The position numbers were made by a program, and so were the translations under genes. This document shows positions 36,051-56,667 of a DNA stretch of 64,000 nucleotides, one piece after another (the stretch's first letter is position 1; each line of letters opens with the position of its first letter). Origin of the DNA: Endozoicomonas sp. G2_2 (GTDB taxonomy: Bacteria; Pseudomonadota; Gammaproteobacteria; Nevskiales; Salinisphaeraceae). Where the stretch lies: assembly GCF_017744135.1 (NCBI RefSeq), contig NZ_JAGHQU010000001.1:62001-126000 (forward strand), given 5' to 3'. The notes under the pieces were generated by a model. That model worked only from the letters and a program-made list of their open reading frames with translations, did no database searches and was not told where the DNA came from.

Positions 36051-36799
36051 GCGAAGCCGCCCTCAAGGTGGACGCGGTCACCAAATCCTATGGATCGCTG
36101 AAGGCGCTCGATGCGCTGTCGCTTGCGGTCGAGCAGGGCGAGTTCGTGGCCCTGCTGGGGCCGAACGGCGCCGGCAAAAGCACGCTGTTCCAGCTGCTGA
36201 CCGGTCTGTTCGTGCCCGACGCCGGCGCGATCGAGGTGGCCGGCCACGACATGCGCCGCGACTCGCGCGCGGCGCTGGCCAAGCTCGGCGTGGTGTTCCA
36301 GCAGCCCACGCTCGATCTCGACCTGAGCGTGGTGGCCAACCTGAAATTTCATGCCCGCCTGCACGGTATGGGCGCAAAAGCGAAAGCCCGGATCGACGAC
36401 GAACTGGCCCGTATCGGTCAGGCCGAGCGGGCGAAAGACGCCGCGCGTGCCTTGTCCGGCGGCAACCGGCGCAAGATCGAGCTGGCCCGTGCGCTGCTGC
36501 ACGAGCCGGCGCTGCTGCTCATGGACGAACCCACCGTGGGTCTCGATCCCGGCTCGCGCGAGCTGCTCGTCGACTATGTCCACAAGCTGTGTGCCGATCG
36601 GGGCATGGGCGTGCTGTGGGCGACCCATCTGGTCGACGAGGCTGAACGCGCGCACCGCGTGATCGTGCTGCACAAGGGCCAGCGCATCGCCGTGGATACG
36701 CCGCGCGCGCTGTGCGAACAGACGAATACGACTTCGCTGGGTGAGGCTTTTCTCGAACTCACCGGCGAGGCGCCCAAGAAAAAAGAGGAGACCGTGTAA
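36047..36799 (+). CDS. pedA1: ABC transporter ATP-binding protein of the PQQ alcohol system (PedA1-like)
   Basis: This 250-residue ATPase has Walker A (GPNGAGKST), the signature ALSGGNRRKIELARAL, Walker B (LLLMDEPTVGLD) and the H-loop ATHLVDEAE. The 'SGGNRRK' form and the neighbours identify the ATPase that accompanies PQQ alcohol dehydrogenases. In Pseudomonas putida KT2440 the PedA1-A2-B-C transporter is reported to be needed for growth that depends on rare earth elements. Here the four genes are in the same order. The single-base overlap with the next gene shows tight coupling. Confidence 0.88.
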   Translation: MSEAALKVDAVTKSYGSLKALDALSLAVEQGEFVALLGPNGAGKSTLFQLLTGLFVPDAGAIEVAGHDMRRDSRAALAKLGVVFQQPTLDLDLSVVANLKFHARLHGMGAKAKARIDDELARIGQAERAKDAARALSGGNRRKIELARALLHEPALLLMDEPTVGLDPGSRELLVDYVHKLCADRGMGVLWATHLVDEAERAHRVIVLHKGQRIAVDTPRALCEQTNTTSLGEAFLELTGEAPKKKEETV

Positions 36800-37797: not shown

Positions 37798-39047
37798 CCA
37801 TGGCGCGTCGTGATCTTCGATCGATGGCCGGGTCGCTGCGGCGGAGCGTGCTGCTGTGTCTGCTCGCCGGCGCGGCAGCGCTCGCGCTGCCGGGGATTGC
37901 CACGGCGCAGCAGGACCTCGAGGCCTTCGATTTCGGTTATATCGGCTGGAACGACGACCCGCGCTATTCCGAGGCGCGTATCGAGCGCGAATACCAGGGC
38001 GAACCCTGGGGCCGGCCCATCGACGGCGCGCGTGTGGCCATCGACGAGGCGCGTTTCCCGGGTATGGCGGCCGGCGTGAAGTTCGGCCTGAACGAAAAGC
38101 TGGTGGCCAACACCCGAGAAGTGCTGGAAACAGTGCGCGCGATGCGCGATGCGGGCACGCGTTTCATCCTGCTCGATCTGCCCGCCGGAACGGTGTCACG
38201 CGTGGCGGAAGAGTTCGCCGGCGATGATCTGACGCTGTTCAACGTCGCCGCCCACGACGACCGTCTGCGCGGTGCGCACTGCCAGGCAAACCTGCTGCAT
38301 ACGATCCCGTCGGATGCCATGCGCAACGACGCGCTGGCGCAATATCTGGTGTCGCGCCAGTGGGACGACGTGCTCTTGCTGGTCGGGCCGGAGCGCGCGG
38401 ACAAGGTGGTGGCCAAGTCCTTTCAGCGTTCGGCTAAGCGCTTTGGCCTAAATATCGTGGGCACGCGCGATTTCGTGCTCGGCAACAACCCGCGCGAGCG
38501 CGACAGGAACAACCCCAAGCTGCTGACCTCGGGTGTCGATTACGACGCGGTCTATATCGCCGATACGCAAAGTGAATTCGCCCGCAACGCCAACTTCGCG
38601 ATCCAGAAACCGCGGCCGGTGGTCGGCAGTGCCGGTCTCGTAGCGCAGGCCTGGCACTGGGCCTGGGTACGCCATGGCGCACGCCAGCTCAACAACCGGC
38701 TGGAGAAGAAAGCCGACCGCCACATGACCGGCTACGACTGGGCCGCCTGGGTGGCGGTGAAATCCATCGTCGAGGCCGTCCAGCGCACTGAGAGCACCGA
38801 TTACGCCAAGCTCGCGACTTACGTGCGCGGCGACGAGATCAATCTCGACGGCTTCAAGGGTTATCGCATGGGCTTTCGCGACTGGGACGGCCAGCTGCGC
38901 CAGCCCATGCTGCTCGGCACCGGCAACTGGGTGGTCGCGCGTGCGCCGCTGGACGGCTTTCTGCATCCGGACAACTATCTCGACACCCTCGGTTTCGACC
39001 CGCGCGAGTCTGCCTGCAGGCTCGCCAACGAAAAGAAAGGTTCCTGA
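37794..39047 (+). CDS. pedB: PQQ-associated ABC transporter substrate-binding protein (PedB-like)
   Basis: This protein of about 417 residues has a signal peptide (cleavage after ATAQ, near residue 40) and the pattern of the binding proteins found only in PQQ alcohol systems (DFGYIGWNDDPRYSEARIE near the start of the mature chain). A GTG at 37794 would overlap the previous stop codon by 4 bases; an ATG at 37800 is two codons later and equally possible. Its ligand is not known; in P. putida the system is linked to lanthanide use. Confidence 0.86.
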   Translation: MTMARRDLRSMAGSLRRSVLLCLLAGAAALALPGIATAQQDLEAFDFGYIGWNDDPRYSEARIEREYQGEPWGRPIDGARVAIDEARFPGMAAGVKFGLNEKLVANTREVLETVRAMRDAGTRFILLDLPAGTVSRVAEEFAGDDLTLFNVAAHDDRLRGAHCQANLLHTIPSDAMRNDALAQYLVSRQWDDVLLLVGPERADKVVAKSFQRSAKRFGLNIVGTRDFVLGNNPRERDRNNPKLLTSGVDYDAVYIADTQSEFARNANFAIQKPRPVVGSAGLVAQAWHWAWVRHGARQLNNRLEKKADRHMTGYDWAAWVAVKSIVEAVQRTESTDYAKLATYVRGDEINLDGFKGYRMGFRDWDGQLRQPMLLGTGNWVVARAPLDGFLHPDNYLDTLGFDPRESACRLANEKKGS

Positions 39048-39050
39048 TTC

Positions 39051-39857
39051 ATGGCTCGCATCGCCCACGTGCTCCAGGCGCTGACCGCGGTCTCCTCGCG
39101 CGAGACCGTCAAGTTCATGCATCAGCGCGGGCGGCTGGCCTCTGCGGTGGTTCGCCCGAGCCTGTGGCTGCTGATCTTCGCGGCCGGCTTCAAGAACGTG
39201 TTCGGCATCTCGGTGCTGCCGCCCTACGACAGCTATATCGAGTATCAGGTCTATGTCGTGCCCGGCCTGCTGGGCATGGTGTTGCTGTTCAACGGCATGC
39301 AGTCGTCGCTGGCCATGGTCTACGACCGCGAGATGGGGCTCATGCGGCTGCTGCTCACCGCGCCCTTGCCGCGTTCCGTGCTGCTGGCCTGCAAGCTGCT
39401 CGCGGGGACGTTTCTGTCCGTGCTGCAGGCCTATGCCTTTCTCGTCGTCTGTGCTTTGTTCGGTGTCGATTTGCCCTGGTGGCCGGGGCTGCTTACGGTG
39501 CTGCCGGCCCTGATTCTCACCGGGCTGATGCTCGGCGCGCTGGGCCTGCTGCTCTCGGTCTATATCAAGCAGCTGGAGAATTTCGCCGGCACCATGAACT
39601 TCGTGATCTTCCCTATGTTCTTTCTATCCCCGGCGCTTTATCCGCTCTGGAAACTCGAGGAATCGGGCGCGACCGTCATCTACCAGCTGTCGCGGATCAA
39701 CCCGTTCACACACGGCGTGGAACTGGTGCGGTTCGCGATGTACGGCCAGATCAACGGTGTCGCGTTGGCGGTGGTTGCCGGAACGCTGATCGTCTTCTTC
39801 GCGGCGGCCGTCTGGGGCTATGACCCGCAGCGCGGCCTGGTGCGGCGCAAGGGCTAG
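39051..39857 (+). CDS. pedC: ABC-2 type permease of the PQQ alcohol system (PedC-like)
   Basis: This 268-residue protein has six hydrophobic segments and the ABC-2 permease pattern (MVLLFNGMQSSLAMVYDREMGLMRLLLTAPLPRSVLLACKLL region, residues about 78-120), with the late FFLSPALYPLW motif. ABC-2 permeases usually export, so the direction of transport by PedA1-C is not settled. It is the last gene of the eight-gene operon and is followed by a GC hairpin. Confidence 0.88.
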   Translation: MARIAHVLQALTAVSSRETVKFMHQRGRLASAVVRPSLWLLIFAAGFKNVFGISVLPPYDSYIEYQVYVVPGLLGMVLLFNGMQSSLAMVYDREMGLMRLLLTAPLPRSVLLACKLLAGTFLSVLQAYAFLVVCALFGVDLPWWPGLLTVLPALILTGLMLGALGLLLSVYIKQLENFAGTMNFVIFPMFFLSPALYPLWKLEESGATVIYQLSRINPFTHGVELVRFAMYGQINGVALAVVAGTLIVFFAAAVWGYDPQRGLVRRKG

Positions 39858-39925: not shown

Positions 39926-40237
39926 CTATTTCGCCGCGACGATTCGCCAGAAGCTCATGCGAATACGATCGCCCAACGCCTGGGCGGCCGTTTCGCAGGA
40001 CGTACCGAACCCGGCGATTTCGATTTCAAGCGCGCGCCCGAAACGCCGCAGCCGGCGGCGCGCAATAAAAGAAATAAGCGCAAGCGCGCCGAACAGCAGA
40101 CCGCCCGCCGGTTCGCCGAACAGCATTGCGGTGGCCAAGCCAAGACAGATCACGCCGTTGAGCGCGAGCACCCCGTCGTATTCGCGAAGGCTGGCCAGCC
40201 GTTTGTCGGCCGCCGATCGTAGTTCTGCCATATCCAT
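39926..40237 (-). CDS. Small membrane protein of unknown function
   Basis: This 103-residue protein has two closely spaced hydrophobic segments (about residues 22-40 and 43-60), followed by a basic stretch (RRRLRRFGR) and a soluble tail. It is convergent with pedC. The ATG at 40237 (MDMAELRS) has a GAGG site; the next ATG two codons later is also possible. I do not recognise a family. Confidence 0.6.
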   Translation of the reverse strand: MDMAELRSAADKRLASLREYDGVLALNGVICLGLATAMLFGEPAGGLLFGALALISFIARRRLRRFGRALEIEIAGFGTSCETAAQALGDRIRMSFWRIVAAK

Positions 40238-40620
40238 TGTGAAACCTCGAAAGTGAAAAGGTTTTGAAGACGCATGGCTATCGGCCGTGCCGCTGCAGAG
40301 TAAAGCGGTTTTATTGCTTTTTTTCGACGCTGCCCGTCGTGGCGCCCGACCGTCTTCGCGAGGCATGAATGAAGCCACCGGGGCGCGTACCGAGCACCCG
40401 CGATAAAGCCGGCGCAGTATACTCGGGCCGGTTCAATATCCCGGCGCTTCGCCCGGATGGCTCCTGATGAAAAAGCGTGGCGACGCCGCGGTATGTTGTC
40501 GGTTTCGACACCGTGCGCTGCGATTCGCCGGCGCGGGCGAGTGCGGGTCGAAAAACCGTCGACGCGGTGGCCGGATAGGCGGCGTCGGGCAGGCGGGGAC
40601 GAGGCGCTTGCCCGCGTAAA

Positions 40621-43325: not shown

Positions 43326-44897
43326 ATGAGGTGGCGCATAAACCGGCGGAAAAACGGCGCGGCGGCAATCGGCCTGTCCACGCTCATGGTCGCGGCACTC
43401 GCCATCAACATGGTCTCGCTGGTGGTGGCTGCAATCGTTCTGGTCAACGGCTGGTCACGCGCTGAATGGCTGGTGCAACGCGGCACGATGACCCATCAGC
43501 AGCTCGAGATTCTCGCCGGTGTATCGGGCGCCATCGATCGCTATCTGGATCTCGTCGAACGCTCTGCGCCGCCGGGCGATGTCGCCGCGGGCGAAAGAGA
43601 AGTCACCCGGATTCTCGATCGCTGGTCGTCGAGCGTGGCGCGCGAGTCGCAGATGCTGGATGCGCCGGCCAGTGCGCAGGAAGCGCGGGCGGAACGGGCG
43701 CGAATAGCGCGTATCCGGGCACTTGTGGCGCGCGGAGAGCAGGCGCTTCTCACTCGCCGCGAGCCGCTTTGGGTCACGCGTACGGAGATCGAGGTATTGA
43801 TACAGGAAGCGATTGCCGACGAGCGCGCCGAAGTGGAGCAGACGACAGCGGCCATTGCGCGGACCGGCCGACAGATCGGCGTGCTGGTCATAGGCATCCC
43901 GCTGGCCGCGCTGGGCGTGGCGGGACTGATGAGCCTGTTGCTCGCGCGGACCATGCGCCGTCGCCTGCGGGCACTCATGGCCGGCGCGTCCGCGATCGGT
44001 GGCGGTGATCTGGCCTATCGCTTCGAAGGCAACGCGCGTGACGATCTCGGCCTGCTCGCGGTCATGTTCAACCGTATGGCGGCTCGCCTCAGACGCAGCC
44101 GTTCGCGACTGGAGGTGCTACAGCACGAACTCGAGGCGCGGGTCGCGCATCGTACGGCCGAACTCGAGCAGAAGAACCGCCAGCTGCAGGCGATCGACAG
44201 CAACCGGGAACAATTTTTCAGCGAAATCTCGCACGAACTGCGCACGCCGCTCACCGCGCTGCGAGGCGAGGCTGAAGTGTCGCTGCGCCAGCCGAACGAC
44301 GCCGGCGGCCAGCGCGAATCGCTACGTCATATCGTGGCGCTCGCCGGCGACCTGGAAAACAGTATCAACGACCTGGTTGAACTCGCGCGATCGCAGACGC
44401 GCGAGCTCCTGTTCGTGCGCGAACATATCGACCTCGTGTCACTGTTGGCACGTACGGCATCCGCCGGACGCGCGCTCGGCATACCGCGCTCGGTTGCGGT
44501 GCTATTCGTCGATAATGTCGTGCGCAGCGATTTTCGCGGCGATGCCCAGCGGCTTCAGCAGACGTTTCTCACCCTCGTTGACAACGCGATCAAGCACGCA
44601 CCCGCGGGCAGTAGCGTGACCGTGACGCTGGACGCCAGTCCCGCAGCGGGCATGTATCACGTCAGCGTTGTCGACCGTGGGCCGGGTATTCCGCAGGCGA
44701 TTCGCAACCGCGTGTTCGATGACTTCTTTCAGGGCGATCCGAGCCAGCGCGGCGGTATGGGGCTGGGGCTGGCGATCGCGCGACGGGTCATCCAGGCTCA
44801 CGGTGGGCGCATCGAGATCACCGATGCCGATCACGGCAGCGGTACGCGGGTGCGGGTGTCGTTGCCCCTGTACGAAGCACGGCGCGCCGCGGGATGA
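43326..44897 (+). CDS. Sensor histidine kinase (HAMP, HisKA)
   Basis: This 523-residue kinase has two membrane helices (about residues 16-40 and 180-205) around a periplasmic sensor of about 140 residues. A HAMP domain, a coiled coil, an H-box ISHELRTPL with H303 and a catalytic domain with DRGPGIP and GMGLGLAIARR follow. Its stop overlaps the next gene by 4 bases. Position next to the calcium-type PQQ dehydrogenase suggests that it senses an alcohol, aldehyde or metal signal for that gene, but this is only inferred. Confidence 0.92.
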   Translation: MRWRINRRKNGAAAIGLSTLMVAALAINMVSLVVAAIVLVNGWSRAEWLVQRGTMTHQQLEILAGVSGAIDRYLDLVERSAPPGDVAAGEREVTRILDRWSSSVARESQMLDAPASAQEARAERARIARIRALVARGEQALLTRREPLWVTRTEIEVLIQEAIADERAEVEQTTAAIARTGRQIGVLVIGIPLAALGVAGLMSLLLARTMRRRLRALMAGASAIGGGDLAYRFEGNARDDLGLLAVMFNRMAARLRRSRSRLEVLQHELEARVAHRTAELEQKNRQLQAIDSNREQFFSEISHELRTPLTALRGEAEVSLRQPNDAGGQRESLRHIVALAGDLENSINDLVELARSQTRELLFVREHIDLVSLLARTASAGRALGIPRSVAVLFVDNVVRSDFRGDAQRLQQTFLTLVDNAIKHAPAGSSVTVTLDASPAAGMYHVSVVDRGPGIPQAIRNRVFDDFFQGDPSQRGGMGLGLAIARRVIQAHGGRIEITDADHGSGTRVRVSLPLYEARRAAG

Positions 44898-45562
44898 ATC
44901 TTCTCATCGTCGAAGACGACGCGCGGGTTGCGCGCATACTTGAACGTGGGCTCGCTGCCGAAGGGTTCACTCCCACGCCGGTGCCCTGCGGCAGTGACGC
45001 GCTGGCGTATATCGAGCGTTTCGAATTCGACTTGATGCTTCTCGACGTGCGCCTGCCGGATATCGATGGCTTCACGCTGTGTCGGCGTATCCGCGCTGCC
45101 GGTCACGACATGCCGGTTCTGATGCTCACGGCGCGCGAGCAGGTCGACGATCGCGTGGCGGGGCTCAACGCCGGCGCCGACGATTATCTCACCAAGCCGT
45201 TTGCCTTCGAGGAGCTCATCGCGCGTATCAATGCGCTGAGTCGACGGGCGCGCGCTACGGCCGATACGCGATTGCGATTCGACGCGCTGTGTCTCGACCC
45301 GGGCACGCGCCAGGCGTGCCTCGCCGATGAGACGCTGGATCTCAGCGCGCGCGAGTTTGCGCTGCTGCAGTGCCTGATGCGCGATGCCCCGAACGTGCTC
45401 TCTCGCGCCCGCCTGCTCGAGCGGGTATGGGGGGCCGATGCCGAGGTCACGGAAAACACCATCGATGTGTACATCGGCTATCTGCGCCGCAAACTGCGTG
45501 GCGCCGCCGGTGGCCCGTATATCCAGACGGTGCGTGGGGCCGGGTATCGGCTTACGACTTAA
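44894..45562 (+). CDS. OmpR-family response regulator
   Basis: This 222-residue protein has a receiver domain with acidic residues D8/D9, phosphorylation site D51 (LLDVRLPD) and lysine in YLTKPF. A C-terminal winged helix follows (ENTIDVYIGYLRRKL, VRGAGYRL). It is coupled to the kinase gene by a 4-base overlap. Tandem TCAGGC motifs 11 bases apart lie just downstream, ahead of the calcium-type dehydrogenase gene, and may be its binding site. Confidence 0.94.
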   Translation: MNLLIVEDDARVARILERGLAAEGFTPTPVPCGSDALAYIERFEFDLMLLDVRLPDIDGFTLCRRIRAAGHDMPVLMLTAREQVDDRVAGLNAGADDYLTKPFAFEELIARINALSRRARATADTRLRFDALCLDPGTRQACLADETLDLSAREFALLQCLMRDAPNVLSRARLLERVWGADAEVTENTIDVYIGYLRRKLRGAAGGPYIQTVRGAGYRLTT

Positions 45563-45717: not shown

Positions 45718-47598
45718 ATGTCTTTTGCCCATCTACTGGATCGACGGCGTGGCGCGGTCGGTGCCATCGCACTCGGCATGGCGATCGCCGCCTCGCCGGC
45801 CTATGCCAAGGAAGTGACCTGGGACGACATCGTCAACGATGCCGAAACCCCGGAAAACGTGCTCATGTACGGCTTCGGCCCCAAGGCGCAGCGCTTTTCG
45901 CCGATGGATCACATCAACGCCGACAACGTCGAGCGCCTGCGCCCGGCGTGGCAGTTCTCCTTTGGCGACGAGAAGCAGCGCGGCCAGGAAACCCAGCCGG
46001 TCGTGTTCGACGGCAAGATCTATCTCACCGCGTCGTATTCCCGCATGTTCGCGCTGGATTCGGCCACCGGCGAAAAAATCTGGGACTACAGCCACCGCCT
46101 GCCCGATGACATTCGCCCGTGTTGCGACGTGGTCAACCGCGGGCCCGCGATCTACGGCGACAAGCTGTTCTTCGGCACGCTCGACGCGAACCTCGTCGCG
46201 CTCAACAAGGACTCCGGCGAAGTGGTCTGGAACGAGAACTTCGACGACCACAAGGCGGGCTACACGATGACCGGCGCGCCGACCATCATCAAGGATCAGA
46301 AGACCGGCAAGATCATGCTCATCCACGGTAACTCGGGCGACGAGTTCGGTGCGCTGGGCAAGCTCTATGCCCGCAATCCGGATACCGGCGAAGAGCTGTG
46401 GATGCGCCCGTTGGTCGAGGGCCATGTCGGCCGCAAGGGCGGTGAGCAAAGCACCCCCACGGGCGACCCCGAGGCACCGTCCTGGCCGGATGGCGATTAC
46501 AACGATACCGGCAAGGCCGAGGCCTGGAGCCACGGCGGCGGGGCGCCCTGGCAGAGCGCGTCGTTCGACGTGAGCACCAACACCATCATCATCGGTGCGG
46601 GCAACCCGGCACCGTGGAACACCTGGGCGCGCACCGGTGAATCCGGCAATCCGCGCGATTACGAAAGCCTCTACACCTCCGGTCAGGCCTATGTGGAGCC
46701 GAGCACCGGTGAACTGGTGGGCTTCTACCAGCACACGCCGAATGACGCCTGGGATTTCTCGGGCAACAACGAGATCATCCTTTTCGACTTCGAGAAGGAC
46801 GGCAAGACGATGCAGGCGGGCGCCCACGCCGACCGCAACGGCTACTTCTTCCTGACCGACACGCAGAAGTTGGCCGAGCGTGGCGGCGAGATCAACAAGC
46901 CCACGGCGCTGCTCGCGGCCTATCCGTTCGTCGACAACATCACCTGGACCGACGGTTACAACCTCGAGACCGGCAAGCCCAACGAGGTTGAAGGCCAGCG
47001 CCCGCCGCAGATCAAGGAAGGCGAAGATCGCGGCGAATCCATTCAGGTGTCGCCCCCGTTCCTGGGGGGCAAGAACTGGAACCCGATGTCCTACAGCCCG
47101 GATACCGGCCTGTTCTATATCCCGGCCAACAACTGGACCGAGGATTACTGGACCGAGAACGTCCAGTACAAGAAGGGTGCGGCCTATCTCGGTCAGGGTT
47201 TTCGTATTCACAAGATGTACGACGACCACGTCGGCACCCTGCGGGCCATGGACCCGGCCACCGGCGAGATCGTCTGGAAACATAACGAGGAGCTGCCGCT
47301 CTGGGCCGGGACCATGGCCACCGCGGGCAACCTCGTGTTTACCGGCACCAGCGATGGCTACTTCAAGGCCTTCAATGCCGAAACCGGCGAAGAGCTCTGG
47401 CGCTACAACACCGGTTCCGGCGTGGTCGGGGTGCCGATCACCTGGGAGCAGGACGGCGAACAGTATGTGGGCATCGCGACCGGCTACGGCGGCGCCGTGC
47501 CGCTGTGGGGTGGCGACCTTGCCGATCTGACCAAGCCGGTCAGCCAGGGCGGTTCCTTCATCGCTTTCAAGATTCCGGACTGGGCCCAGGAAGGCTAG
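45718..47598 (+). CDS. pedE: PQQ-dependent alcohol dehydrogenase, calcium type (PedE/ExaA-like)
   Basis: This 626-residue periplasmic quinoprotein has a signal peptide (cleavage after AYA, near residue 30), the adjacent cysteines C135-C136, the GAGNPAPWN loop and the active-site segment TPNDAWDFSGNN. D346 is the catalytic base and S348 stands where lanthanide enzymes have a second aspartate, so calcium is expected. It is about 36 residues longer than the paralogue at 23199, mainly in mid-chain loops. It oxidises primary alcohols such as ethanol to aldehydes and feeds cytochrome c550. GAGGAG lies ahead of the ATG. Confidence 0.92.
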   Translation: MSFAHLLDRRRGAVGAIALGMAIAASPAYAKEVTWDDIVNDAETPENVLMYGFGPKAQRFSPMDHINADNVERLRPAWQFSFGDEKQRGQETQPVVFDGKIYLTASYSRMFALDSATGEKIWDYSHRLPDDIRPCCDVVNRGPAIYGDKLFFGTLDANLVALNKDSGEVVWNENFDDHKAGYTMTGAPTIIKDQKTGKIMLIHGNSGDEFGALGKLYARNPDTGEELWMRPLVEGHVGRKGGEQSTPTGDPEAPSWPDGDYNDTGKAEAWSHGGGAPWQSASFDVSTNTIIIGAGNPAPWNTWARTGESGNPRDYESLYTSGQAYVEPSTGELVGFYQHTPNDAWDFSGNNEIILFDFEKDGKTMQAGAHADRNGYFFLTDTQKLAERGGEINKPTALLAAYPFVDNITWTDGYNLETGKPNEVEGQRPPQIKEGEDRGESIQVSPPFLGGKNWNPMSYSPDTGLFYIPANNWTEDYWTENVQYKKGAAYLGQGFRIHKMYDDHVGTLRAMDPATGEIVWKHNEELPLWAGTMATAGNLVFTGTSDGYFKAFNAETGEELWRYNTGSGVVGVPITWEQDGEQYVGIATGYGGAVPLWGGDLADLTKPVSQGGSFIAFKIPDWAQEG

Positions 47599-48306: not shown

Positions 48307-48768
48307 ATGCGCCTGGCCGTATGCGCGCTGCTTGCGGTTGTGGCCGTGGCCGATGCGGCCCACGGCGCGCAGAGTGTACTCGGCGAAAAAGGCCTCGCTG
48401 CCCTGCGCGCCTGTGGTCTGCAGCGTGCCGACAGCGCCCGCCTGGCCTGTTACGACGCGGCCGCCGAGCGATACCTGAGTTTCGATTTCGCCGGGACCGG
48501 TCGCGAACGCACGCCGGCTTTCGACAGTGCGGCCGGGTTTCGCCTGGGCTTTCACAACGAGGACGTGATCTTCGTGATCTATGTCTTCGATGCCGACAGC
48601 GGCGAACTGGTGAAGTCCTACAGCGCGGGGCCGGGCGAAGGCGAGGTGGCCGTGCGACGTCACGGGCGTTTCTATATCGAGGTCAAGGCCACTGGCGCCT
48701 GGAAAATATGGATCCGTCCGCTGGCCGAGCCTGACACGCAAGCACAGCAAGGAAAAACAAAACCATGA
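48307..48768 (+). CDS. Exported protein of unknown function
   Basis: This 153-residue protein has a signal peptide (MRLAVCALLAVVAVADAAHG). The mature part has two cysteines (ACGLQRADSARLACYDAAAERY), a pattern that recalls the type VI associated YacA/TssB-like 'CYD' stretch of small envelope proteins, then a beta-rich domain. The ATG at 48307 was chosen; a GTG two codons upstream overlaps the preceding stop. Its last 4 bases overlap the cytochrome gene. No function is assigned. Confidence 0.72.
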   Translation: MRLAVCALLAVVAVADAAHGAQSVLGEKGLAALRACGLQRADSARLACYDAAAERYLSFDFAGTGRERTPAFDSAAGFRLGFHNEDVIFVIYVFDADSGELVKSYSAGPGEGEVAVRRHGRFYIEVKATGAWKIWIRPLAEPDTQAQQGKTKP

Positions 48769-49259
48769 TCGAATCCCACCGAATCCGTCCGCTTTCGTTG
48801 GCTCTGGGCATCGCCGTAATGGCCGCCGGCACGTTTTATGGCATGGCGCCGGTGTACGCGCACGGCGACGTCGCGCCGCAACCCGTGGACACCAAGGGTT
48901 TAAAGGACTTGCCGGACGGCGAATGGCGTTCCAGCAATCCCTATCGCGGCAACAAAGAAGCGATCGATATCGGTAGTTCGGCGTACAACGCCAACTGCGC
49001 GCGCTGTCACGGCCTGGAGGCACAGTCTGGCGGGATCGCACCGGATCTGCGCGAACTGGGCACGAACTACGACGACTATTTCATCGGTCGCGTGCGCAAG
49101 GGTGTGCATCGAAACGGCGTGACCTACATGCCCGCGTTCGAAGACACGCTCAGCCAGGAAGCCATGTGGGCTATTCTGTCCTATCTGGACAAGCGTCACT
49201 ACGAGCTCGAGGGCAAGAGCCTCGAGACGCTGTATTCCCAGGACAAAGGCGGACAATAA
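48765..49259 (+). CDS. pedF: Cytochrome c550 (PedF type), second copy
   Basis: This 164-residue protein is closely similar to the cytochrome at 25048: signal peptide ending YAHGD, a heme site CARCH and GVTYMPAF with the axial methionine. It differs in about a third of positions, so it is a paralogue and not a recent copy. Its placement four genes after the calcium-type dehydrogenase suggests that each dehydrogenase has its own acceptor. Confidence 0.92.
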   Translation: MIESHRIRPLSLALGIAVMAAGTFYGMAPVYAHGDVAPQPVDTKGLKDLPDGEWRSSNPYRGNKEAIDIGSSAYNANCARCHGLEAQSGGIAPDLRELGTNYDDYFIGRVRKGVHRNGVTYMPAFEDTLSQEAMWAILSYLDKRHYELEGKSLETLYSQDKGGQ

Positions 49260-49468: not shown

Positions 49469-50023
49469 TCAGTTTGCAGCAGCCGTTTTTTCGTCCGGCT
49501 CCTGGCCGATCTGCCACTGCTCGACCGAGAGTTCGATGATCTCGCCGGACACCGCGTCGACCTCGACCTTGAACTCGGTGTCCTGGCCGTCCTGGGCCAG
49601 GTCGATCTCATAGCTCGGGGAGCCGTCGGATTCGATCTCGTACTCGACTTCGACCACGTCGCCGCCGAAACGGTCCTGCGCGGTCTTGATCGCGTCCGCC
49701 TCGCTGACCTTGGCGGTTCGGGCAAAGGCCTCGTCGTCGGCGGATTCGGCTTCGGTCTCGAGCTCGTAGATGTCGCCGGTCCGGGCGTTGCACATCAGCT
49801 CCCATTCCTTGTCGGAATCGTCGCGGATCTCGATCTCGTAGGTCGGCGCGCCGGCCGGGCTGACGCTCAGGTATTCGACCTTCACGATATCCCCCTGCCG
49901 GACGCTCTTCGCCGACTGCAGGCAGGTTTCAAGCGGTACGGTGCCGTGGGCCTGCCCGGCCAGCGCAACGGTGGCGACGAGGCTGACCGGCAATGCGGCA
50001 AGCAGGTAGATCGGTGAGCGCAT
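49469..50023 (-). CDS. Acidic periplasmic protein with two PepSY-like domains
   Basis: This 184-residue exported protein (signal about residues 1-23) has two PepSY-like units, about residues 40-88 and 104-165, each with the VxxVEYE...YEIEI/YEIDL and DAxSGEIIEL patterns. About 40 of some 160 mature residues are Asp or Glu. LanPepSY of Methylobacillus flagellatus is a periplasmic PepSY protein reported to bind lanthanides. The acidity, the export and the position next to a TonB receptor and PQQ dehydrogenases make a metal-binding role attractive. The ATG at 50023 has an AGGAGA site. A general PepSY envelope role cannot be excluded. Confidence 0.8.
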   Translation of the reverse strand: MRSPIYLLAALPVSLVATVALAGQAHGTVPLETCLQSAKSVRQGDIVKVEYLSVSPAGAPTYEIEIRDDSDKEWELMCNARTGDIYELETEAESADDEAFARTAKVSEADAIKTAQDRFGGDVVEVEYEIESDGSPSYEIDLAQDGQDTEFKVEVDAVSGEIIELSVEQWQIGQEPDEKTAAAN

Positions 50024-50062
50024 TATCGAGTCTCCTAGCAATGGATGTCGTCTCCAGCATGC

Positions 50063-50123
50063 AAAAAAAACAGGTGGCCGGCCAGCGAGAGTCAAGGGAG
50101 AGGTTTCGCTGACCGGTCACCTG
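50063..50123 (-). terminator. Rho-independent terminator of the TonB receptor gene
   Basis: Arms of 18 bases (CAGGTGGCCGGCCAGCGA against TCGCTGACCGGTCACCTG, two mismatches) are followed on the minus strand by eight U. It separates the receptor from the PepSY gene, which therefore needs its own promoter or read-through. Confidence 0.85.
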
Positions 50124-50159
50124 CGGAGGAGACTGACGAATTTCAAGTACAGCGGCGCG

Positions 50160-52505
50160 CTAGAGTTCCACGCGTATGCCGCCCCAGATGCCGCGCGGCG
50201 CGCCGGGGCCGATGAAGCGGCTGGCGTCCTCGTAGCGATCGCCTTCGAGCACTTCGTCGGCTTCGCCGTAGAGGCCGAAGGTCTCGTAGTCGGAATCGAG
50301 CAGGTTGTTCACCCGCACGAAGGTCGTGATCCGATCGGTGATCTTGAACGCCGCGTTGGCGTTGACGATGGCATAGCCGTCGATCTTTTCGCTGTCGGTG
50401 TTCGATTCGTCGCCGCGATAGATCTGGTCGCCGTTGCCGACCACGTCCATGCCGACGCGCAGACGGCTGGTGGGCGCCCAATCGATACCGACGTTGAACA
50501 GATGCTCCGGAATCAGCGGGATGCGATCACCCGATTCAACCTGCTGGGTCGGGTCGTCACCCGGGGCGGCGTCCTCGTCGGCCAGCGGGTGATTCGGCGA
50601 GTTGGTGATGAACGGATCGCGGAATTCGGCGTTGATATAGGTGTAGTTCGCCGACAGACGCCAGCGCTCGGCGAACGCCCAGTCGAGGCCCAGCTCCACG
50701 CCCTGGCGACGAGTGTCGCCAACGTTGTCGAAATATCCCTCGAAGCGCGATTCCGCGGAGATGAAGAGGATGTCGTCCTGGTTGTCGGAACGAAACACCG
50801 CGGCATGCCACCGCAGGTTGTCGTTGCCGCCGCGCAGGCCGAGTTCGTAGGTCGTGGTCACGACCTGCTCCAGGGGCGGATCGTCCACGAAGCCGTTGGG
50901 CAGCCGGCAGGGCTCGTCCGGGTTCGCGCAGGTCAGCTCGACCGGGGTCGGCGCCCGCGAGGACTGCGAAATGCTGCCGAAGGTGGTCAGGTTGTCCGTC
51001 ATCTGCCAGGTGAGGCCGCCGGCAAGATTCAGGCGCTTGAACTCGTGGTCGCCGGAGAGGCTGGTGTCGTCGTCATCGTCGTCGCCGAATTCCACCTCGG
51101 GCGAGGTGTCGTGCAGCGAGATAGCGGTACGGTTGTAGCGCCCGGCTAGCGTGCCTTCGAGCGTTTCGGTAATCGGCACACGCTGCAGAAAGAACAGGCT
51201 GGCGGTGCTGTTGTGGGCGGATACGCCGGTCAGCGATTCGCCGGAGACAATGCCGCTGCCGACCGTGCCGCGCTCGTCGGTGAGGCTGGCCAGTTCGGTC
51301 TGCTGGTAGAAGTCGCTGCTGGCGTAGTCGAGGCTGGTGCCCACGATCAGCTCGCCGCCGAGCACGCCCAGCTGGCGACCCTGGAGGTTGAGGCCGAAGC
51401 CGTTTTCCTTGGTTTCCGAGGTGTTTTCGGTGCCGCCAATCACATCGTCGCTGGCGAGCACCGGGTTGCCGTCGGCGTCGAAAACCACTTCCTCTTCGCC
51501 GCCGTCTTCGGCTTCTTCGCAAAGCAGGCCGGCGTTGCCGCCGTCTTCGCAGTCCTCGAATTCGGAGCCGTCACCGTTGAAAGTGTTGATCTCGTTGCGC
51601 CGGTAGTAGGCGCCCCAGGCGAGGGTGAAGTCGTCGCTGTAGTCGCGCGTGCCGCGCAGGTTGAACATCACCATTTCCGGGTTGGTTTCGTCCGGGTAGG
51701 TGAAGATCGAATCGCGGCCTTCGGCGCGGGCCAGTTCGGCCGGAATCGCGCCGTTGCCGCGCAGGCTGTTGTCGGCCGCGGTGATGGAGAAATCCAGCGT
51801 GCCGTTGTCGGTAATGGTGGAGAACTGGGTGAACAGCTGCGCCACATCGGAATCGGAGAAATCACGCCAGCCATCTTCGGACACGCCCTGGGCGGCGAAG
51901 TACCAGGCGTCGGTGCCGTTGTTGCCGCCGGCCTGGACATGGCCGCCGAAGCGGCCGAAGTCGCCGCCAAAGACCTCTGCCTCTGCGCCCTGGTAGGTGA
52001 AGCCGGTCTTGGTCTTGACCGACAGCGCGCCGCCGAGCGTGTTCTGGCCGAACAGCGGGTTGGAACCCGGAATGAGATCGATCGAGTCGATGGCCACCTG
52101 CGGGATCAGGTCCCAGTTGACCGTATCGCCGAACGGCTCGTTGATGCGCACGCCGTCCTGATAGATGGACAGCCCCTGCGGCAGGCCGAGCAGCGGTGAG
52201 GCGGTATAGCCGCGATAGTTGAGGTCCGGTTGGAACGGGTTATTGACCGCGTCGTTGACGTGGACGCTGCCCAGTTCCTGCTGCATGTACTGGTTGAGGT
52301 TGAGCGTCTCGGCGCGTTCCACCTCGTCGGAATCCGCATGCTGGACATTGGCCGGATAGCGATCGGCGTCGACCTCGCTGCCGGCAAACGGCGTCGCGCC
52401 GATGACGTCGATACCGCCGAGCTCGAGTGACTGGGCGTGGATGTTCGTGGCTGCCATGGTCGATGTTGCGCCGAGCGCCAGGCACAGCCCTTTTCTGAAG
52501 TGCAT
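50160..52505 (-). CDS. TonB-dependent outer-membrane receptor with acidic loops
   Basis: This 781-residue receptor has a signal peptide (about residues 1-25), a plug domain (about 45-160; IDLIPGSNPLFGQNTLGGALSVKTK) and a 22-strand-type barrel ending in GGIRVEL. No TonB-box was assigned with certainty. Two predicted extracellular loops are unusually acidic: residues about 313-345 (EEAEDGGEEE and neighbouring DGDGSEFEDCEDGG) and a run of six aspartates at about 474-479. Such loops suit hard cations, so import of a lanthanide chelate is a reasonable guess. Iron or other siderophore uptake is the alternative. Confidence 0.88.
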   Translation of the reverse strand: MHFRKGLCLALGATSTMAATNIHAQSLELGGIDVIGATPFAGSEVDADRYPANVQHADSDEVERAETLNLNQYMQQELGSVHVNDAVNNPFQPDLNYRGYTASPLLGLPQGLSIYQDGVRINEPFGDTVNWDLIPQVAIDSIDLIPGSNPLFGQNTLGGALSVKTKTGFTYQGAEAEVFGGDFGRFGGHVQAGGNNGTDAWYFAAQGVSEDGWRDFSDSDVAQLFTQFSTITDNGTLDFSITAADNSLRGNGAIPAELARAEGRDSIFTYPDETNPEMVMFNLRGTRDYSDDFTLAWGAYYRRNEINTFNGDGSEFEDCEDGGNAGLLCEEAEDGGEEEVVFDADGNPVLASDDVIGGTENTSETKENGFGLNLQGRQLGVLGGELIVGTSLDYASSDFYQQTELASLTDERGTVGSGIVSGESLTGVSAHNSTASLFFLQRVPITETLEGTLAGRYNRTAISLHDTSPEVEFGDDDDDDTSLSGDHEFKRLNLAGGLTWQMTDNLTTFGSISQSSRAPTPVELTCANPDEPCRLPNGFVDDPPLEQVVTTTYELGLRGGNDNLRWHAAVFRSDNQDDILFISAESRFEGYFDNVGDTRRQGVELGLDWAFAERWRLSANYTYINAEFRDPFITNSPNHPLADEDAAPGDDPTQQVESGDRIPLIPEHLFNVGIDWAPTSRLRVGMDVVGNGDQIYRGDESNTDSEKIDGYAIVNANAAFKITDRITTFVRVNNLLDSDYETFGLYGEADEVLEGDRYEDASRFIGPGAPRGIWGGIRVEL

Positions 52506-52621
52506 GTCTCCCCCTTGTTTTTATCTCGCACCACCGTCGAGTCTTGCCCGGCCTGCAGGCCGGCTCAATGGGAAATCTTCCCAATATTTCGAATCGCGTG
52601 GTCCGCTATGGCCGGTGTGCG

Positions 52622-53935
52622 TCAGGCCAGCGGGATATCGGCGTGAATACGCGTGCCGTGGCCGGGCCGGCTGTCGATTTGCAGCTGCCCGGCGAGCAGT
52701 TCGATACGTTCCGCCATGCCCGACAGGCCGAGGCCGGGCCGGCGTGCCGCCGGGTCGAAGCCGCGACCGTTGTCGCTTACCGTCACGCGGAGACGATTCG
52801 CCCGCGCGCCCAGAGCCACGTCGATACGCCGCGGCTGACCGTGACGCAGCGCATTGGTCAGCGCTTCCTGCACGAGCCGGAATACATGGATGGCCACGGG
52901 GGCGGGGACGTCTGAGAGCGCCTCGTCGCCGTCGTAGACCAGTTCGATATCGGCATGGCTGCGTTGCCAGCCGGCGACGTGTTCCTCGATGGCGGCATCG
53001 AGGCCCAGCTCGTCGAGGCCCGGTGGACGCAGCCGACGCATCATCAGACGGGTCTGGTCGTAGATCCCTGCGGCGACCTGTGCAATGGCCTCAGCGGATT
53101 CGGGCACGCCGTCAGGCAGCTTTTCCCGACGCGCCAGAATGCCGGCTGCATCGGCCCGAATGGCGGTCAGGCTCTGGCCGAGCTCGTCGTGCAGTTCGCG
53201 CGCGAGGCTGCGGCGTTCGTCTTCCTGGATACGTAGCGAATGGTCGCGCAGGCGCTGGTTCTCGCTGCGGGCCGCGGCGAGCGTTTCGGCCATGTGGTTG
53301 AACTGCGCGGCAATGCCGTCGAATTCGGGCAGCACGAAGGTCGGCAGGCGAATGGCGTAGTCGCCGTGCTCGATACGCGCGAGCGCAGCATCAATGCGCT
53401 GGACAGGCACGATGGCGCGGCCGAGTAGGCGGTAGACGATCACGATGGTGGCGCCGTAGAACACCAGCAGCAGGGCAAGAAGCCCGCGCGTGTCCTGCCA
53501 GGCTTCGGCGATCTCGTCGTCCGGGTCCGCCAGGATCACGATCGCCTCGTGCGCGGACACGCTGATACGACGATCGGGCAGGGCGTCGGGGCGTGTCATC
53601 GCCGCAAACCAGGCGGGAGCGTCGGCGCCGTCACCCGCCGGACACTCGTTGCTGTTGTCGCCGGCGGACACCAGCGACAGACACAGGTGGCGCAGATGGC
53701 CGATCGCGGCCAGCCGTTGCGCGGCCGCGAGCGCTTCGCCGTCGCTGCGGATGCTGGTTTCCACCAGATCGCTGGCCAGCGTCACGCTGGATTCCATTTC
53801 CTCGGCGATCGCGCGTTGTGCGTTGTGGATCACCAGCCAGCCGGCTGCCATCAGGATCACGGCAAGCAGCAGCGTGACCGCGAGCATCAACCGCTGGCGC
53901 AGCCGCAGTCGGGGTTTGAAACGCGAACCGGCCAA
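52622..53935 (-). CDS. Sensor histidine kinase of the NarX/HisKA_3 type
   Basis: This 437-residue kinase has helices at about residues 17-37 and 151-170 around a periplasmic sensor of about 110 residues that contains acidic clusters (DPDDEIAE) and a pair of cysteines. A HAMP domain and the HisKA_3 box ERRSLARELHDELGQSL (H249) follow, then an ATPase domain with DNGRGFD and GLGLSGMAER. The NarL-type regulator gene lies immediately upstream on the same strand. The pair is of the class (ExaD/ExaE, PedS2/PedR2) that controls PQQ alcohol dehydrogenases in Pseudomonas. Confidence 0.92.
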   Translation of the reverse strand: MAGSRFKPRLRLRQRLMLAVTLLLAVILMAAGWLVIHNAQRAIAEEMESSVTLASDLVETSIRSDGEALAAAQRLAAIGHLRHLCLSLVSAGDNSNECPAGDGADAPAWFAAMTRPDALPDRRISVSAHEAIVILADPDDEIAEAWQDTRGLLALLLVFYGATIVIVYRLLGRAIVPVQRIDAALARIEHGDYAIRLPTFVLPEFDGIAAQFNHMAETLAAARSENQRLRDHSLRIQEDERRSLARELHDELGQSLTAIRADAAGILARREKLPDGVPESAEAIAQVAAGIYDQTRLMMRRLRPPGLDELGLDAAIEEHVAGWQRSHADIELVYDGDEALSDVPAPVAIHVFRLVQEALTNALRHGQPRRIDVALGARANRLRVTVSDNGRGFDPAARRPGLGLSGMAERIELLAGQLQIDSRPGHGTRIHADIPLA

Positions 53936-53945
53936 CGGCTTGTAA

Positions 53946-54584
53946 CTAGAGCCCGACGACGCCGGTACGAATCGCCAGCCGGGTCAGGTCGGCGGTGCCG
54001 CCGAGGCCCAGCTTGGCGCGCAGGCGCGACGCATGGTTGGCGACGGTCTTGGGGCTGAGAAACAGTTCCTCGGCGATCGCGTTGACGCTGGCCCCGGAGG
54101 CCAGCAGCCGAAAGATCTCGAATTCGCGCGACGACAGGCGCGACAGGGGATTTTCGGCCTCGAACGGCGCCGCTTCCTCGTCGACGAGCGCCGCGCCGAT
54201 ATAGCGCTTGCCGCGCGCGACCTGGCGCACGGCGTCGATCAACACGTCGGCGACCGCGCGTTTGCCGATATAGCCGGTCGCGCCCGCAGCCAGCGCGCGG
54301 CGCACGAAGATCTCTTCCTCGTGTACCGAAAACACCAGGATGCGCGTGCCGGGGTTGCGGCTGCAGATGCGCCGCGTGGCCTCGATTCCGCTCATGCCCG
54401 GCAGCGACAGATCCATGACGATCACGTCGAACGCCTGCTCGCGGCACAGGGCATAGGCGCGTTCGCCGCTGTCGGCCTCGCCCACGACTTCGATATCACC
54501 GGCCATCTTGAGCAGTCGCCCGTAGCCCGCACGCACGACGGCATGATCGTCGACCAGCAGGACCCGGATGGATTGACTCGTCAT
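53946..54584 (-). CDS. NarL/FixJ-family response regulator
   Basis: This 212-residue protein has a receiver domain (VDDH at 11-14, phosphorylation site D58 in VIVMDLSLPG, lysine in GYIGKRAV) and a C-terminal LuxR helix-turn-helix (LSSREFEIFRLLASGASVNAIAEELFLSPKTVANH). The ATG at 54584 has a GGGAGGAG site. The kinase gene follows 10 bases later. It is like AgmR/ErbR/PedR regulators of ethanol oxidation; whether it senses metal, alcohol or both is not shown. Confidence 0.92.
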   Translation of the reverse strand: MTSQSIRVLLVDDHAVVRAGYGRLLKMAGDIEVVGEADSGERAYALCREQAFDVIVMDLSLPGMSGIEATRRICSRNPGTRILVFSVHEEEIFVRRALAAGATGYIGKRAVADVLIDAVRQVARGKRYIGAALVDEEAAPFEAENPLSRLSSREFEIFRLLASGASVNAIAEELFLSPKTVANHASRLRAKLGLGGTADLTRLAIRTGVVGL

Positions 54585-54704
54585 TGCTGTTCTCCTCCCT
54601 CGCCCGGATCGCATGCCGGGTTATTGCGCCTTTCGCGCACGGCGCGTGTGGTCCGCGCCTTGGCTACAAGATAGCGTATCCGCTGCGGCCGTAAGCATGC
54701 AGCG

Positions 54705-54784: not shown

Positions 54785-56296
54785 TTAGAGAGCGACCGTC
54801 ACGGCCTTGCACTCGGTGTAGTTGTTGAGCACCTGCTCACCCATCTCGCGGCCCCAGCCCGACTGCTTGTAGCCGCCGAACGGCAGCGCCGCATCGAAGA
54901 TGTTGTAGCAGTTCACCCACACCGTACCGGCACGCAGCTTCGAGGCCAGTTTGTGGGCGCGGCCGATATCCTGCGTCCACACACCCGAGGCCAGGCCGAA
55001 CACCGTGTCGTTGGCACGACGCACCAGATCGGCGTCGACATCGGAGAACTTGGTTGCGGTCACGACCGGCCCGAAGATCTCCTCCTGTACGACTTTCATG
55101 TCGTCCGAGACGTCGGTGAGCACCGTCGGCTTCACGAAGTAGCCTTCGCCATCGCCGCGTTCGCCGCCGGCCGCGGCCGTCGCGCCCTGGCTCTTGCCGG
55201 AGTCCAGGAAGCCGGTGACGCGCTCGAGCTGGGTGCGCGAGACCAGCGGACCCATCTGCGTTTCCGGATCCAGGCCCGGGCCCAGCTTGATGTTGCGGGC
55301 GAAATCGGCCACGCCTTCCACGACCTGGTCGTAGATTTTTTCGTGCACGAACAGACGCGAGCCCGCCGCACAGCACTGGCCGTGGTTGAAGAAGATGGCG
55401 TTCGCCGCACCCGGAATCGCCTTCTCGAGATCGGCGTCGTCCAGAATGATGTTCGGCGACTTGCCGCCCAGCTCCAGCGATACCTTCTTGAGGTTGCCCT
55501 TGGCGGCATCGACGATCAGACGCCCGACCTCGGTGGAACCGGTGAAGGCGATCTTGTCGACATCCGGATGTGCCGCGATCGGCGCGCCGGCCTCTTCGCC
55601 GAAGCCGGTAATGATGTTGACCACGCCGTCCGGCACGCCGGCTTCCTGCATGATCTCGGCCAGCTTCAGACCCGACAGCGGGGTTTCTTCGGCCAGCTTC
55701 ATCACGATGGTGTTGCCGGTGGCCAAGGCCGGGGCCAGCTTCCAGGCCGCCATCAGCAGCGGGAAGTTCCAGGGAATGATCTGGCCGCAGACGCCGACCG
55801 GCTCGCGCCGGGTATAGGCATGCCATTCCGCGCCCGGCGCATAGGGCACGGTCGGGGTGATCATCTGGCCGTTGAGCTTGGTCGCCCAGCCGGCCATGTA
55901 GCGGAACATCTCCGCGGCCAGCGGCACGTCCGCGGCACGGGCGACGGAAATCGGCTTGCCGTTGTCCAGGGATTCGAGCTGCGCCAGCTCTTCCTGGTAA
56001 TGCATGATCAGATCGCCGATCTTCCAGACGATCTGCTGGCGCTCGGCCGGCGCCATCTTCGTCCACGGGCCGTCGTCGAAAGCCTTGCGGGCGGCCTTCA
56101 CGGCCTTGTCCACGTCGACCTTCGAGGCCGACTGCGCCCGCGCGATCACCTGGTCGTTGGACGGGTTGTAGACATCGAACGTCTCGCCGGACTCGGCAGC
56201 GACCCACTGGCCGCCGATGAGCATCTTGCGCGGACTATCGATAAATTGCTGGACGCTCGGTTCGAGCGATACTTCAGAAGCTGCTACAGCACACAT
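54785..56296 (-). CDS. NAD-dependent aldehyde dehydrogenase (PedI/ExaC-like)
   Basis: This 503-residue enzyme shows the catalytic glutamate in LELGGKSPN, the catalytic cysteine in FFNHGQCCAAGSRL and the PWNFPL and FTGSTEVG cofactor motifs. It would oxidise the aldehyde made by the PQQ dehydrogenases to the acid in the cytoplasm. The ATG at 56296 starts MCAVAAS with a GGAGGAG site; the frame is open further upstream but unrelated. A sigma-54 promoter and two palindromes lie ahead of it, and the divergent gene encodes a sigma-54 activator, which probably controls it. Confidence 0.93.
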   Translation of the reverse strand: MCAVAASEVSLEPSVQQFIDSPRKMLIGGQWVAAESGETFDVYNPSNDQVIARAQSASKVDVDKAVKAARKAFDDGPWTKMAPAERQQIVWKIGDLIMHYQEELAQLESLDNGKPISVARAADVPLAAEMFRYMAGWATKLNGQMITPTVPYAPGAEWHAYTRREPVGVCGQIIPWNFPLLMAAWKLAPALATGNTIVMKLAEETPLSGLKLAEIMQEAGVPDGVVNIITGFGEEAGAPIAAHPDVDKIAFTGSTEVGRLIVDAAKGNLKKVSLELGGKSPNIILDDADLEKAIPGAANAIFFNHGQCCAAGSRLFVHEKIYDQVVEGVADFARNIKLGPGLDPETQMGPLVSRTQLERVTGFLDSGKSQGATAAAGGERGDGEGYFVKPTVLTDVSDDMKVVQEEIFGPVVTATKFSDVDADLVRRANDTVFGLASGVWTQDIGRAHKLASKLRAGTVWVNCYNIFDAALPFGGYKQSGWGREMGEQVLNNYTECKAVTVAL

Positions 56297-56410
56297 CTTT
56301 TTACTCCTCCGGTCATTTTTGTATTCACCCGACGACCGAATGTCGTCGCGGCTTGCGTTGCGAGCGCTCGCCGTCCGTCGTGCGGACGCCTGCGCGCCTG
56401 CTTCGAGAAT

Positions 56411-56427
56411 CGCAAGATTCAGGCCAC
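56411..56427 (-). promoter_or_regulatory. Sigma-54 promoter of the aldehyde dehydrogenase gene
   Basis: On the minus strand GTGGCCTGAATCTTGCG has GG-N10-GC spacing and a perfect TTGC -12 element. Transcription would begin near 56400, about 100 bases ahead of the start codon. Confidence 0.72.
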
Positions 56428-56487
56428 GCGCAAAAACGCCGTAAACGCGGCGTTTGCACGCGCTCGCAGGCATGTCGGCACACAGAC

Positions 56488-56526
56488 TGTCACGCATCTG
56501 GGACAGCGATGTTGCACGCTGCGACA
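56488..56526. promoter_or_regulatory. Pair of palindromes, candidate enhancer sites for the AcoR-like activator
   Basis: TGTCACGCATCTGGGACA (56488-56505) and TGTTGCACGCTGCGACA (56510-56526) are both dyads with TGT...ACA ends. Their centres are about 21.5 bases apart, two helical turns, which places two activator dimers on the same face of the DNA. They lie 60-115 bases upstream of the aldehyde dehydrogenase promoter. A related site occurs at 22940. Confidence 0.55.
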
Positions 56527-56667
56527 CCTCGATGAGGGCGAGTTGTGCGGCGTCGTCAAAACTGCTAAAAGCAAAGCAGGACTGCGCGGCGTTCAAGACC
56601 GTTTAAAGACGCAGACAAAAGAGTAATTAAGAAGCCCGGCCCGGCCGGACTTCACGGAGGAGAGCAG

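Follow-up and report, generated by a model that had tools for sequence, protein, structure and literature searches.

The window analysed here, a 64,000-nucleotide stretch of contig NZ_JAGHQU010000001.1 from a salt-loving Salinisphaera (coordinates below are window positions), carries four co-directional genes on its minus strand, in the order response regulator RR2 (54614-53946), sensor kinase HK2 (53935-52622), TonB-dependent receptor (52505-50160) and double-PepSY protein (50023-49469). We conclude that these genes probably form a cassette for acquiring lanthanides that is joined to a ped/pqq island. Homology, gene order, co-occurrence across genomes, enrichment of an upstream palindrome, conservation of the kinase residue equivalent to E147 of MxaY and a receptor upstream region devoid of a Fur box argue for this reading. 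The same evidence supports the acquisition role that an initial annotation had proposed for the receptor and the PepSY protein, the last two genes and the only ones it covered, but the unit comprises at least four genes rather than a pair.

Features of the cassette in the order of the window:
49469–50023, minus strand: LanPepSY-type exported double-PepSY protein, 184 aa (PF03413 twice; phmmer match to PDB 9vy3)
50063–50124, minus strand: terminator-like hairpin with U-run between receptor and PepSY genes (dG -37 kcal/mol, z -3.8)
50160–52505, minus strand: LutH-like TonB-dependent receptor, 781 aa (PF07715 and PF00593; family A2)
52570–52582, no strand: palindrome GGGAAATCTTCCC, candidate operator in the receptor upstream region (the sole such site in the window, kept in Salinisphaera)
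52622–53935, minus strand: MxaY-type sensor histidine kinase HK2 (HAMP, HisKA_3, HATPase)
53946–54614, minus strand: LuxR-type response regulator RR2 (Response_reg and GerE)

The PepSY gene was read from the ATG at 50023, which is a better start than the upstream TTG at 50095. Its product is, as initially annotated, a very acidic double-PepSY protein (isoelectric point 4.05, two stretches matching PF03413 with 76.5 bits, cut-off 24), taken as exported from an N-terminal hydrophobic stretch read by eye. It is the only protein of the genome above the PF03413 cut-off, one further place lying slightly under it (23.6). When all solved structures were searched by sequence with E values up to 10, 9vy3 and its seven sister entries provided the sole sequence matched (E 9.2e-35 across 149 residues, 50% identity in the alignment). 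No mention of 9VY3, 9VY4 or 9VYA was found in the literature searched. Of 80 PepSY loci, that of M. glycogenes is nearest to the 9vy3 chain (87% identity), and the chain's length of 153 residues and final glutamate agree with the D24-E175 LanPepSY construct (PMC11899968). On these two grounds 9vy3 is very probably the LanPepSY of Methylobacillus.

The 80 loci are the best of 126 relatives from named genomes, each read with at most 10 kb on either side, some being shorter. Forty-nine come from genomes named as methylotrophs or methanotrophs, 3 from Salinisphaera and 28 from others, mainly gammaproteobacterial metagenome-assembled genomes. An alignment of 30 sequences shows 22 invariant positions, and Asp or Glu occupies 10 of these. 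An AlphaFold2 model of the protein (mean predicted local distance difference test score 87.9) retrieved PepSY-type folds as top matches (4exr with Z 8.2 over 65 residues, YpmB and YpeB), which added no function; UipA (7ath), a uranium binder, was found with Z 4.8, and the 9vy entries were absent among the matches. A plasmid search for relatives gave no match at E 1e-10. The link to LanPepSY drawn in the initial annotation is thus upheld by the 50% identity to 9vy3 and by the 49 methylotroph-named sources among the best 80 relatives: the window protein is by homology a LanPepSY relative, and it is predicted to bind lanthanides. It resembles LanPepSY (LanP) of Methylobacillus flagellatus in being a small exported protein with two PepSY stretches, and differs from it in its setting, a Salinisphaera ped island, directly behind a receptor. 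We know of no methylotrophic Salinisphaera.

The receptor (isoelectric point 4.14) combines a Plug (PF07715) with a beta-barrel domain (PF00593). It carries both acidic features on which the initial annotation had relied, a DDDDDD run and, between residues 308 and 365 approximately, the E/D-rich loop. The loop holds at least 10 acidic residues in 30 of 34 relatives (range 4-27; alignment of 35 receptors in which rows L142 and L213 are one gene) and is therefore a family trait. The other acidic features proved less informative. The window receptor is indeed the most acidic of the 13 TonB receptors found in the genome (isoelectric points 4.14-4.82), the only one with a run of six aspartates and the densest in acidic residues (13 in its richest 30-residue stretch versus 8-11 in the others), but all 13 receptors are acidic and the aspartate run is variable even within the genus, so acidic composition was rejected as a main argument.

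More was gained from the relatives of the receptor on plasmids, of which there are 25, all below 60% identity; seven of their neighbourhoods were read. On a plasmid of M. nodulans, a relative that covers 100% of the query at 33% identity is followed by a response regulator and then by an EF-hand protein whose loops read DPDNDGTLD and DPDKDGTLD, which we take to be lanmodulin because DPDxDGTLD loops are its hallmark. On Variovorax and Sphingobium plasmids the relative lies inside PQQ (pyrroloquinoline quinone)/ped clusters with D-F-D dehydrogenases. In Methylorubrum extorquens AM1, lutH (META1p1785) adjoins lanM (META1p1786), and LutH, also a TonB receptor, is required for lanthanide uptake and repressed by lanthanides (PMC7391723). 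The window receptor is accordingly classed as LutH-like, as initially annotated, through the M. nodulans family member one gene away from lanmodulin and not through the LutH sequence itself. It differs from LutH in its partners, which are LanPepSY and the Ped ABC (ATP-binding cassette) importer instead of LanM and the Lut proteins. Identity with LanA, a TonB receptor linked to the lanthanide switch of M. buryatense, was rejected: the M. buryatense genome has no member of the window receptor family at E 1e-20. LanA itself is less than 20% identical to the M. extorquens receptors (PMC6839425).

The distribution of the receptor was compared with that of dehydrogenases bearing the D-x-D motif, the mark of lanthanide enzymes. 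Among 17 genomes of the family, 7 have a receptor ortholog (81-100% identity), and the same 7 encode a Ped substrate-binding protein over the cut-off. A D-x-D dehydrogenase of the methanol/ethanol family occurs in all 7 and in 0 of the 10 others (28 matches above 260 bits were read, and weaker glucose-dehydrogenase-like WDYD proteins were not counted). The seven genomes belong to one genus, so the family pattern alone could reflect shared ancestry. A wider draw comprised 369 gammaproteobacterial genomes with 182 family labels. Matches to the receptor profile (E 1e-60) were found in 37 genomes, to PepSY (E 1e-20) in 18 and to a strict DNA pattern for H-[DE]-x-W-D-[YF]-D-G in 35; the backward control of this pattern gave none among the matches listed. 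The pattern was present in 28 of 37 receptor genomes versus 7 of 332 others (receptor alone 9, pattern alone 7, neither 325; Fisher p 8e-28) and, counted by family, in 17 of 22 versus 4 of 160 (both 17, receptor alone 5, pattern alone 4, neither 156; p 4e-16), values that overstate independence because the genomes are related. PepSY coincided with the receptor in 15 of its 18 genomes and with the pattern in 13.

When the 9 receptor-only genomes were re-read, a D-x-D dehydrogenase was recognised in five (G176, G250, G298, G346 and G359; for G346 part of its 21 matches was read). This raises the count to 33/37, for which no new p-value is given because only the receptor-positive arm was relaxed. 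Three others are 64-78% complete: G086 showed only the calcium type, G024 only a glucose-dehydrogenase-like protein and G215 no match. The genome G041, with PepSY and without the receptor, has a D-x-D dehydrogenase on re-reading.

Gene order points in the same direction. The 80 PepSY loci include the receptor family 12 times (9 of the 77 non-Salinisphaera loci), an HK2-like kinase 16 times and an RR2-like regulator 18 times, while none of the three was found in 40 evenly spaced 20-kb control stretches from five genomes. A receptor followed on the same strand by PepSY, with 97-205 bp between the matches, was seen in L171, L174 and L190. In L190 receptor, PepSY, HK2 and RR2 stand in a row, and L363 has RR2, HK2 and receptor, with PepSY 5 kb further. 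PQQ dehydrogenases were detected in 15/80 PepSY loci compared to 1/40 controls.

HK2 is 33% identical across 457 columns to the kinase of M. buryatense that fits MxaY. This full-length HK2 relative is followed by a relative of RR2, to which RR2 is 46% identical. Residue 147 of the M. buryatense kinase, counted from the ATG, is the second E of DETVEVW and aligns with DEIAEAW in HK2; E-I-x-E-x-W is common to 13/13 aligned kinases, which all keep the E147 equivalent. MxaY governs the lanthanide switch of M. buryatense and its E147G variant is constitutively active (PMC5018670). We thus assign HK2 as an MxaY-like kinase including the E147 equivalent, and it may control such a switch by analogy. 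PedS2 of Pseudomonas putida has 25% identity to MxaY (PMC6115532). The window system shares with MxaY and PedS2-PedR2 the membrane kinase and, with PedR2, a LuxR-type regulator, a likeness that rests on the MxaY comparison and on the conserved E147 stretch; it differs from them in that HK2 and RR2 are co-directional with the receptor and PepSY genes.

The proximity of kinase and PepSY genes allows another explanation, namely that the PepSY protein is a periplasmic accessory of HK2 that binds lanthanide and modulates the kinase, uptake being left to the receptor alone. The 16 PepSY loci with an HK2-like kinase, the spacing of about 30 bp between the PepSY and kinase matches in L183 and the two Salinisphaera that keep the receptor without PepSY, which make PepSY dispensable for uptake, would fit it. 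We nevertheless find it unlikely: 64 of the 80 loci, some of them short, have no HK2-like kinase at 150 bits, and the up to four lanthanide sites reported on LanPepSY (PMC11845868) suit a buffer role.

Upstream of the Salinisphaera receptors we derived a palindrome, GGGAA-N3-TTCCC. It lies at the same place ahead of the receptor in 7/7 Salinisphaera, in six exactly and in G010 with one mismatch. A relaxed form, GGGAA-N3-TTCC(C/T), was chosen after one-mismatch matches had been seen. Both were counted in 85 related loci, with the three named Salinisphaera set aside (L361 was excluded, being on the same contig as L142; L139/L140 and L139/L367 share some DNA and were retained). The strict form occurred 7 times (6 loci) within upstream windows totalling 62,221 bp versus 2 times in 1,320,040 bp elsewhere, and the relaxed form 32 times (24 loci) versus 9, an approximately 75-fold enrichment ahead of the genes for LanPepSY, dehydrogenase, regulator and receptor. 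Shuffled upstream windows gave 0.125 sites on average (86 loci), and 2 relaxed sites were present in control DNA of 800 kb. Sites were found ahead of PepSY in 11/79 cases, of the dehydrogenase in 6/19, of RR2 in 7/21 and of the receptor in 5/17, divergent genes sharing some of them; the PepSY-upstream sites are not independent because 7 of the 11 cases are Methylomonas.

Of a set of 25 receptor loci, 8 have a site, and all 8 sites are upstream of the receptor. These 25 were tested out of 28, the partial matches L224, L226 and L227 being omitted, of which L224 does have a relaxed site. Nine of the 25 share DNA with the 85-locus set, including 4 of the 8 with a site, so that L212, L214, L215 and L223 are the independent ones. 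At the genome's 12 other receptors no palindrome is present. Around six Salinisphaera XoxF-like genes, two exact sites were seen about 230-240 bp before the match, and three one-mismatch forms.

Among the findings that would speak against a lanthanide role, the initial annotation had named receptor expression controlled by iron (Fur) only. No Fur box was found upstream of the receptor, where the best match (10/19) was equalled in about 0.4 of shuffles, while four of the genome's other 12 receptors reach 12-14/19 at <=0.04. This bears on the suggestion that lanthanides play no part and that the gene, next to one for a PepSY protein, encodes an ordinary receptor for iron siderophores. The best NCBIfam model for the receptor is indeed TIGR01783, a general siderophore receptor, albeit below its cut-off (131.5 vs 223.5 bits). 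Yet the absence of a Fur-like box, unlike in several other receptors of the genome, together with the ties to D-x-D dehydrogenases and the lanmodulin neighbour in Methylobacterium, makes this explanation very improbable.

A second TonB receptor of the genome (L013, C30:79289-81364) is PqqU-like, with 430 bits to NF041535 over nearly the whole model, below the cut-off of 1200. Intended as a neutral control, L013 was itself associated with the dehydrogenase pattern (14/39 genomes, p 1e-6). Its enrichment fades when genomes with the window-type receptor are removed (2/25, p 0.09), while the window-type receptor keeps its own in L013-free genomes (16/23, p 7e-18). That the window receptor takes up PQQ, alone or in complex with a metal, for the island quinoproteins, as its closest solved receptors by sequence, YncD/PqqU (6v81, 9c4o; E ~1e-14), and a weak NF041535 match might suggest, is hardly credible, since L013 is far nearer to PqqU and less linked to the lanthanide pattern (14/39 vs 28/37 genomes) and since the island has its own pqq genes. 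Identity with PqqU itself was rejected on the same comparison (112.7 bits against the cut-off of 1200). In G364, G147 and G256, a PqqU-like receptor lies within about 3 kb of a LutH-like one; PQQ and lanthanide receptors may travel together.

For the lanthanide acquisition cassette the following sequence of events can be proposed. When lanthanides are scarce, HK2 would be active and would phosphorylate a LuxR-type regulator, most simply RR2, a direction of regulation carried over by analogy from MxaY and PedS2. The regulator, bound to GGGAA-N3-TTCCC, would switch on the LutH-like receptor, which would import chelated lanthanide across the outer membrane, energised by TonB. In the periplasm LanPepSY would bind and buffer the ion, and may hand it over to the PedH-like enzyme of the island, the XoxF-like enzyme encoded elsewhere in the genome and the PedA1A2BC importer. 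We are evenly divided on a broader proposal, according to which GGGAA-N3-TTCC(C/T) would be the operator of a gammaproteobacterial lanthanide regulon, recognised by the LuxR-type proteins that partner MxaY-like kinases and controlling lanthanide receptors, LanPepSY and calcium/lanthanide dehydrogenase genes; the cassette would then be a self-contained set for sensing, import and buffering, attachable to ped islands outside methylotrophs and supplying the outer-membrane step missing in P. putida. The locus unites a receptor, a periplasmic binder, a switch-type kinase, a regulator and a candidate operator, and the palindrome offers a sequence tag for finding more lanthanide genes.

Several observations weigh against the acquisition cassette, besides the relatedness of the genomes compared. 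Apart from the receptor site, the window has no palindrome, even relaxed; PepSY, the two dehydrogenases and the ped ABC genes have none in front of them. Neither an exact nor a one-mismatch form was found in the stretch around this genome's XoxF-like gene, nor any palindrome in the M. buryatense stretches read, two with PepSY, one with xoxF and one with MxaY. The aspartate run of the receptor varies within the genus (GDDDDDD, GGDDDD, GEEDD). PepSY is present in 5/7 receptor-bearing Salinisphaera and missing in two. The complete genome G033 has the receptor, yet no D-x-D among the 5 dehydrogenases found, and no PQQ dehydrogenase lies close to the plasmid relatives of M. fujisawaense, Methylocalor, Caballeronia and Ideonella. 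Near PepSY, calcium-type (MxaF-like) dehydrogenases outnumber the lanthanide type (9 vs 4 loci; two more, L176 and L186, have an unclassified motif). Expression of LanPepSY in E. coli did not raise cellular lanthanum or terbium binding (PMC11899968). In M. buryatense, deletion of the regulator beside MxaY had no effect on mxa/xoxF regulation (PMC5018670), so the switch may be operated by a regulator other than RR2. Finally, the terminator-like hairpin separates the receptor from the PepSY gene.

This hairpin (50063-50124) was predicted 3' of the receptor in 6/6 Salinisphaera stretches folded, including two without PepSY, with weak z values (-1.1 to -1.7) in three of them. Its position suggests that the PepSY gene is expressed at a level different from that of the receptor or from its own start, and it is possible that the hairpin acts as an attenuator and not as a plain terminator. 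A promoter/terminator scan, whose loop limit lets this hairpin escape, returned a single promoter-like site and four terminator-like ones, close to what shuffled sequence would give. By eye, the stem is kept though its letters change between Salinisphaera species, and the preceding CTCCTCCG stretch is conserved.

The lanthanide-type dehydrogenase and the PedA1-A2-B-C genes that the initial annotation had reported in the surrounding island were recovered as follows, with further genes of the island.

23199–24971, plus strand: lanthanide-type PQQ alcohol dehydrogenase (PedH-like) with D-x-D motif (TIGR03075, 770.6 bits, cut-off 480)
36047–36799, plus strand: PedB-type ABC ATPase (TIGR03864, over cut-off)
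36799–37797, plus strand: PedA2-type beta-propeller protein (TIGR03866, over cut-off)
37794–39047, plus strand: PedA1-type substrate-binding protein (TIGR03863, over cut-off)
39051–39857, plus strand: PedC-type permease (TIGR03861, over cut-off)
45718–47598, plus strand: calcium-type PQQ alcohol dehydrogenase (PedE/ExaA-like) with NDAWDFSGNN (TIGR03075, 704.5 bits)
48765–49259, plus strand: PedF cytochrome c-550 (TIGR04494, 182 bits, cut-off 122)
54785–56596: aldehyde dehydrogenase reading frame, named by reading alone

The PQQ dehydrogenase closest to the receptor and PepSY genes is the calcium-type enzyme. Of the pqq genes, PqqE was over its cut-off and PqqB and PqqC were recognised by reading. 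The island shares all four importer genes with P. putida KT2440 and differs from it by having a candidate for the outer-membrane step. For organisms that carry ped-type islands, the route of lanthanides through the outer membrane is described as an open question (PMC12997753). Lanthanide dehydrogenases and a putative lanthanophore have been reported in a metagenome-assembled genome of a marine Salinisphaera (PMC11996626), and LanPepSY, LanA and LutH-like receptors have been surveyed in methanotrophs (PMC12482762). In the accessible parts of the literature on PepSY, TonB receptors and lanthanide or methanol dehydrogenases, neither the cassette nor the palindrome was described, and those on MxaY and PedS2 named no promoter site for the lanthanide switch; for lanthanide regulator sites, none was recognised among the matches listed. 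Within this incomplete coverage no paper was found on the combination beside a ped island, as the initial annotation had surmised.

The XoxF-like D-x-D dehydrogenase of the genome (TPHDEWDYDGVN) is encoded at C22:251509-253236 (L103); it shares 68% identity with the D-x-D enzyme of M. buryatense and has relatives in 7/7 receptor-bearing Salinisphaera. Near the lanthanide-type dehydrogenase of the window, positions 25578-26978 encode a PedF-type cytochrome c-550 (TIGR04494 over cut-off) fused to a stretch resembling amino-acid-type periplasmic binding proteins. A protein of at most 150 aa with no Pfam match is encoded at 39926-40378 on the minus strand, and a homolog, identified by eye, follows the receptor in the two Salinisphaera that are devoid of PepSY. 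A second two-component system, of the OmpR type, is located at 43326-45562 ahead of the calcium-type dehydrogenase.

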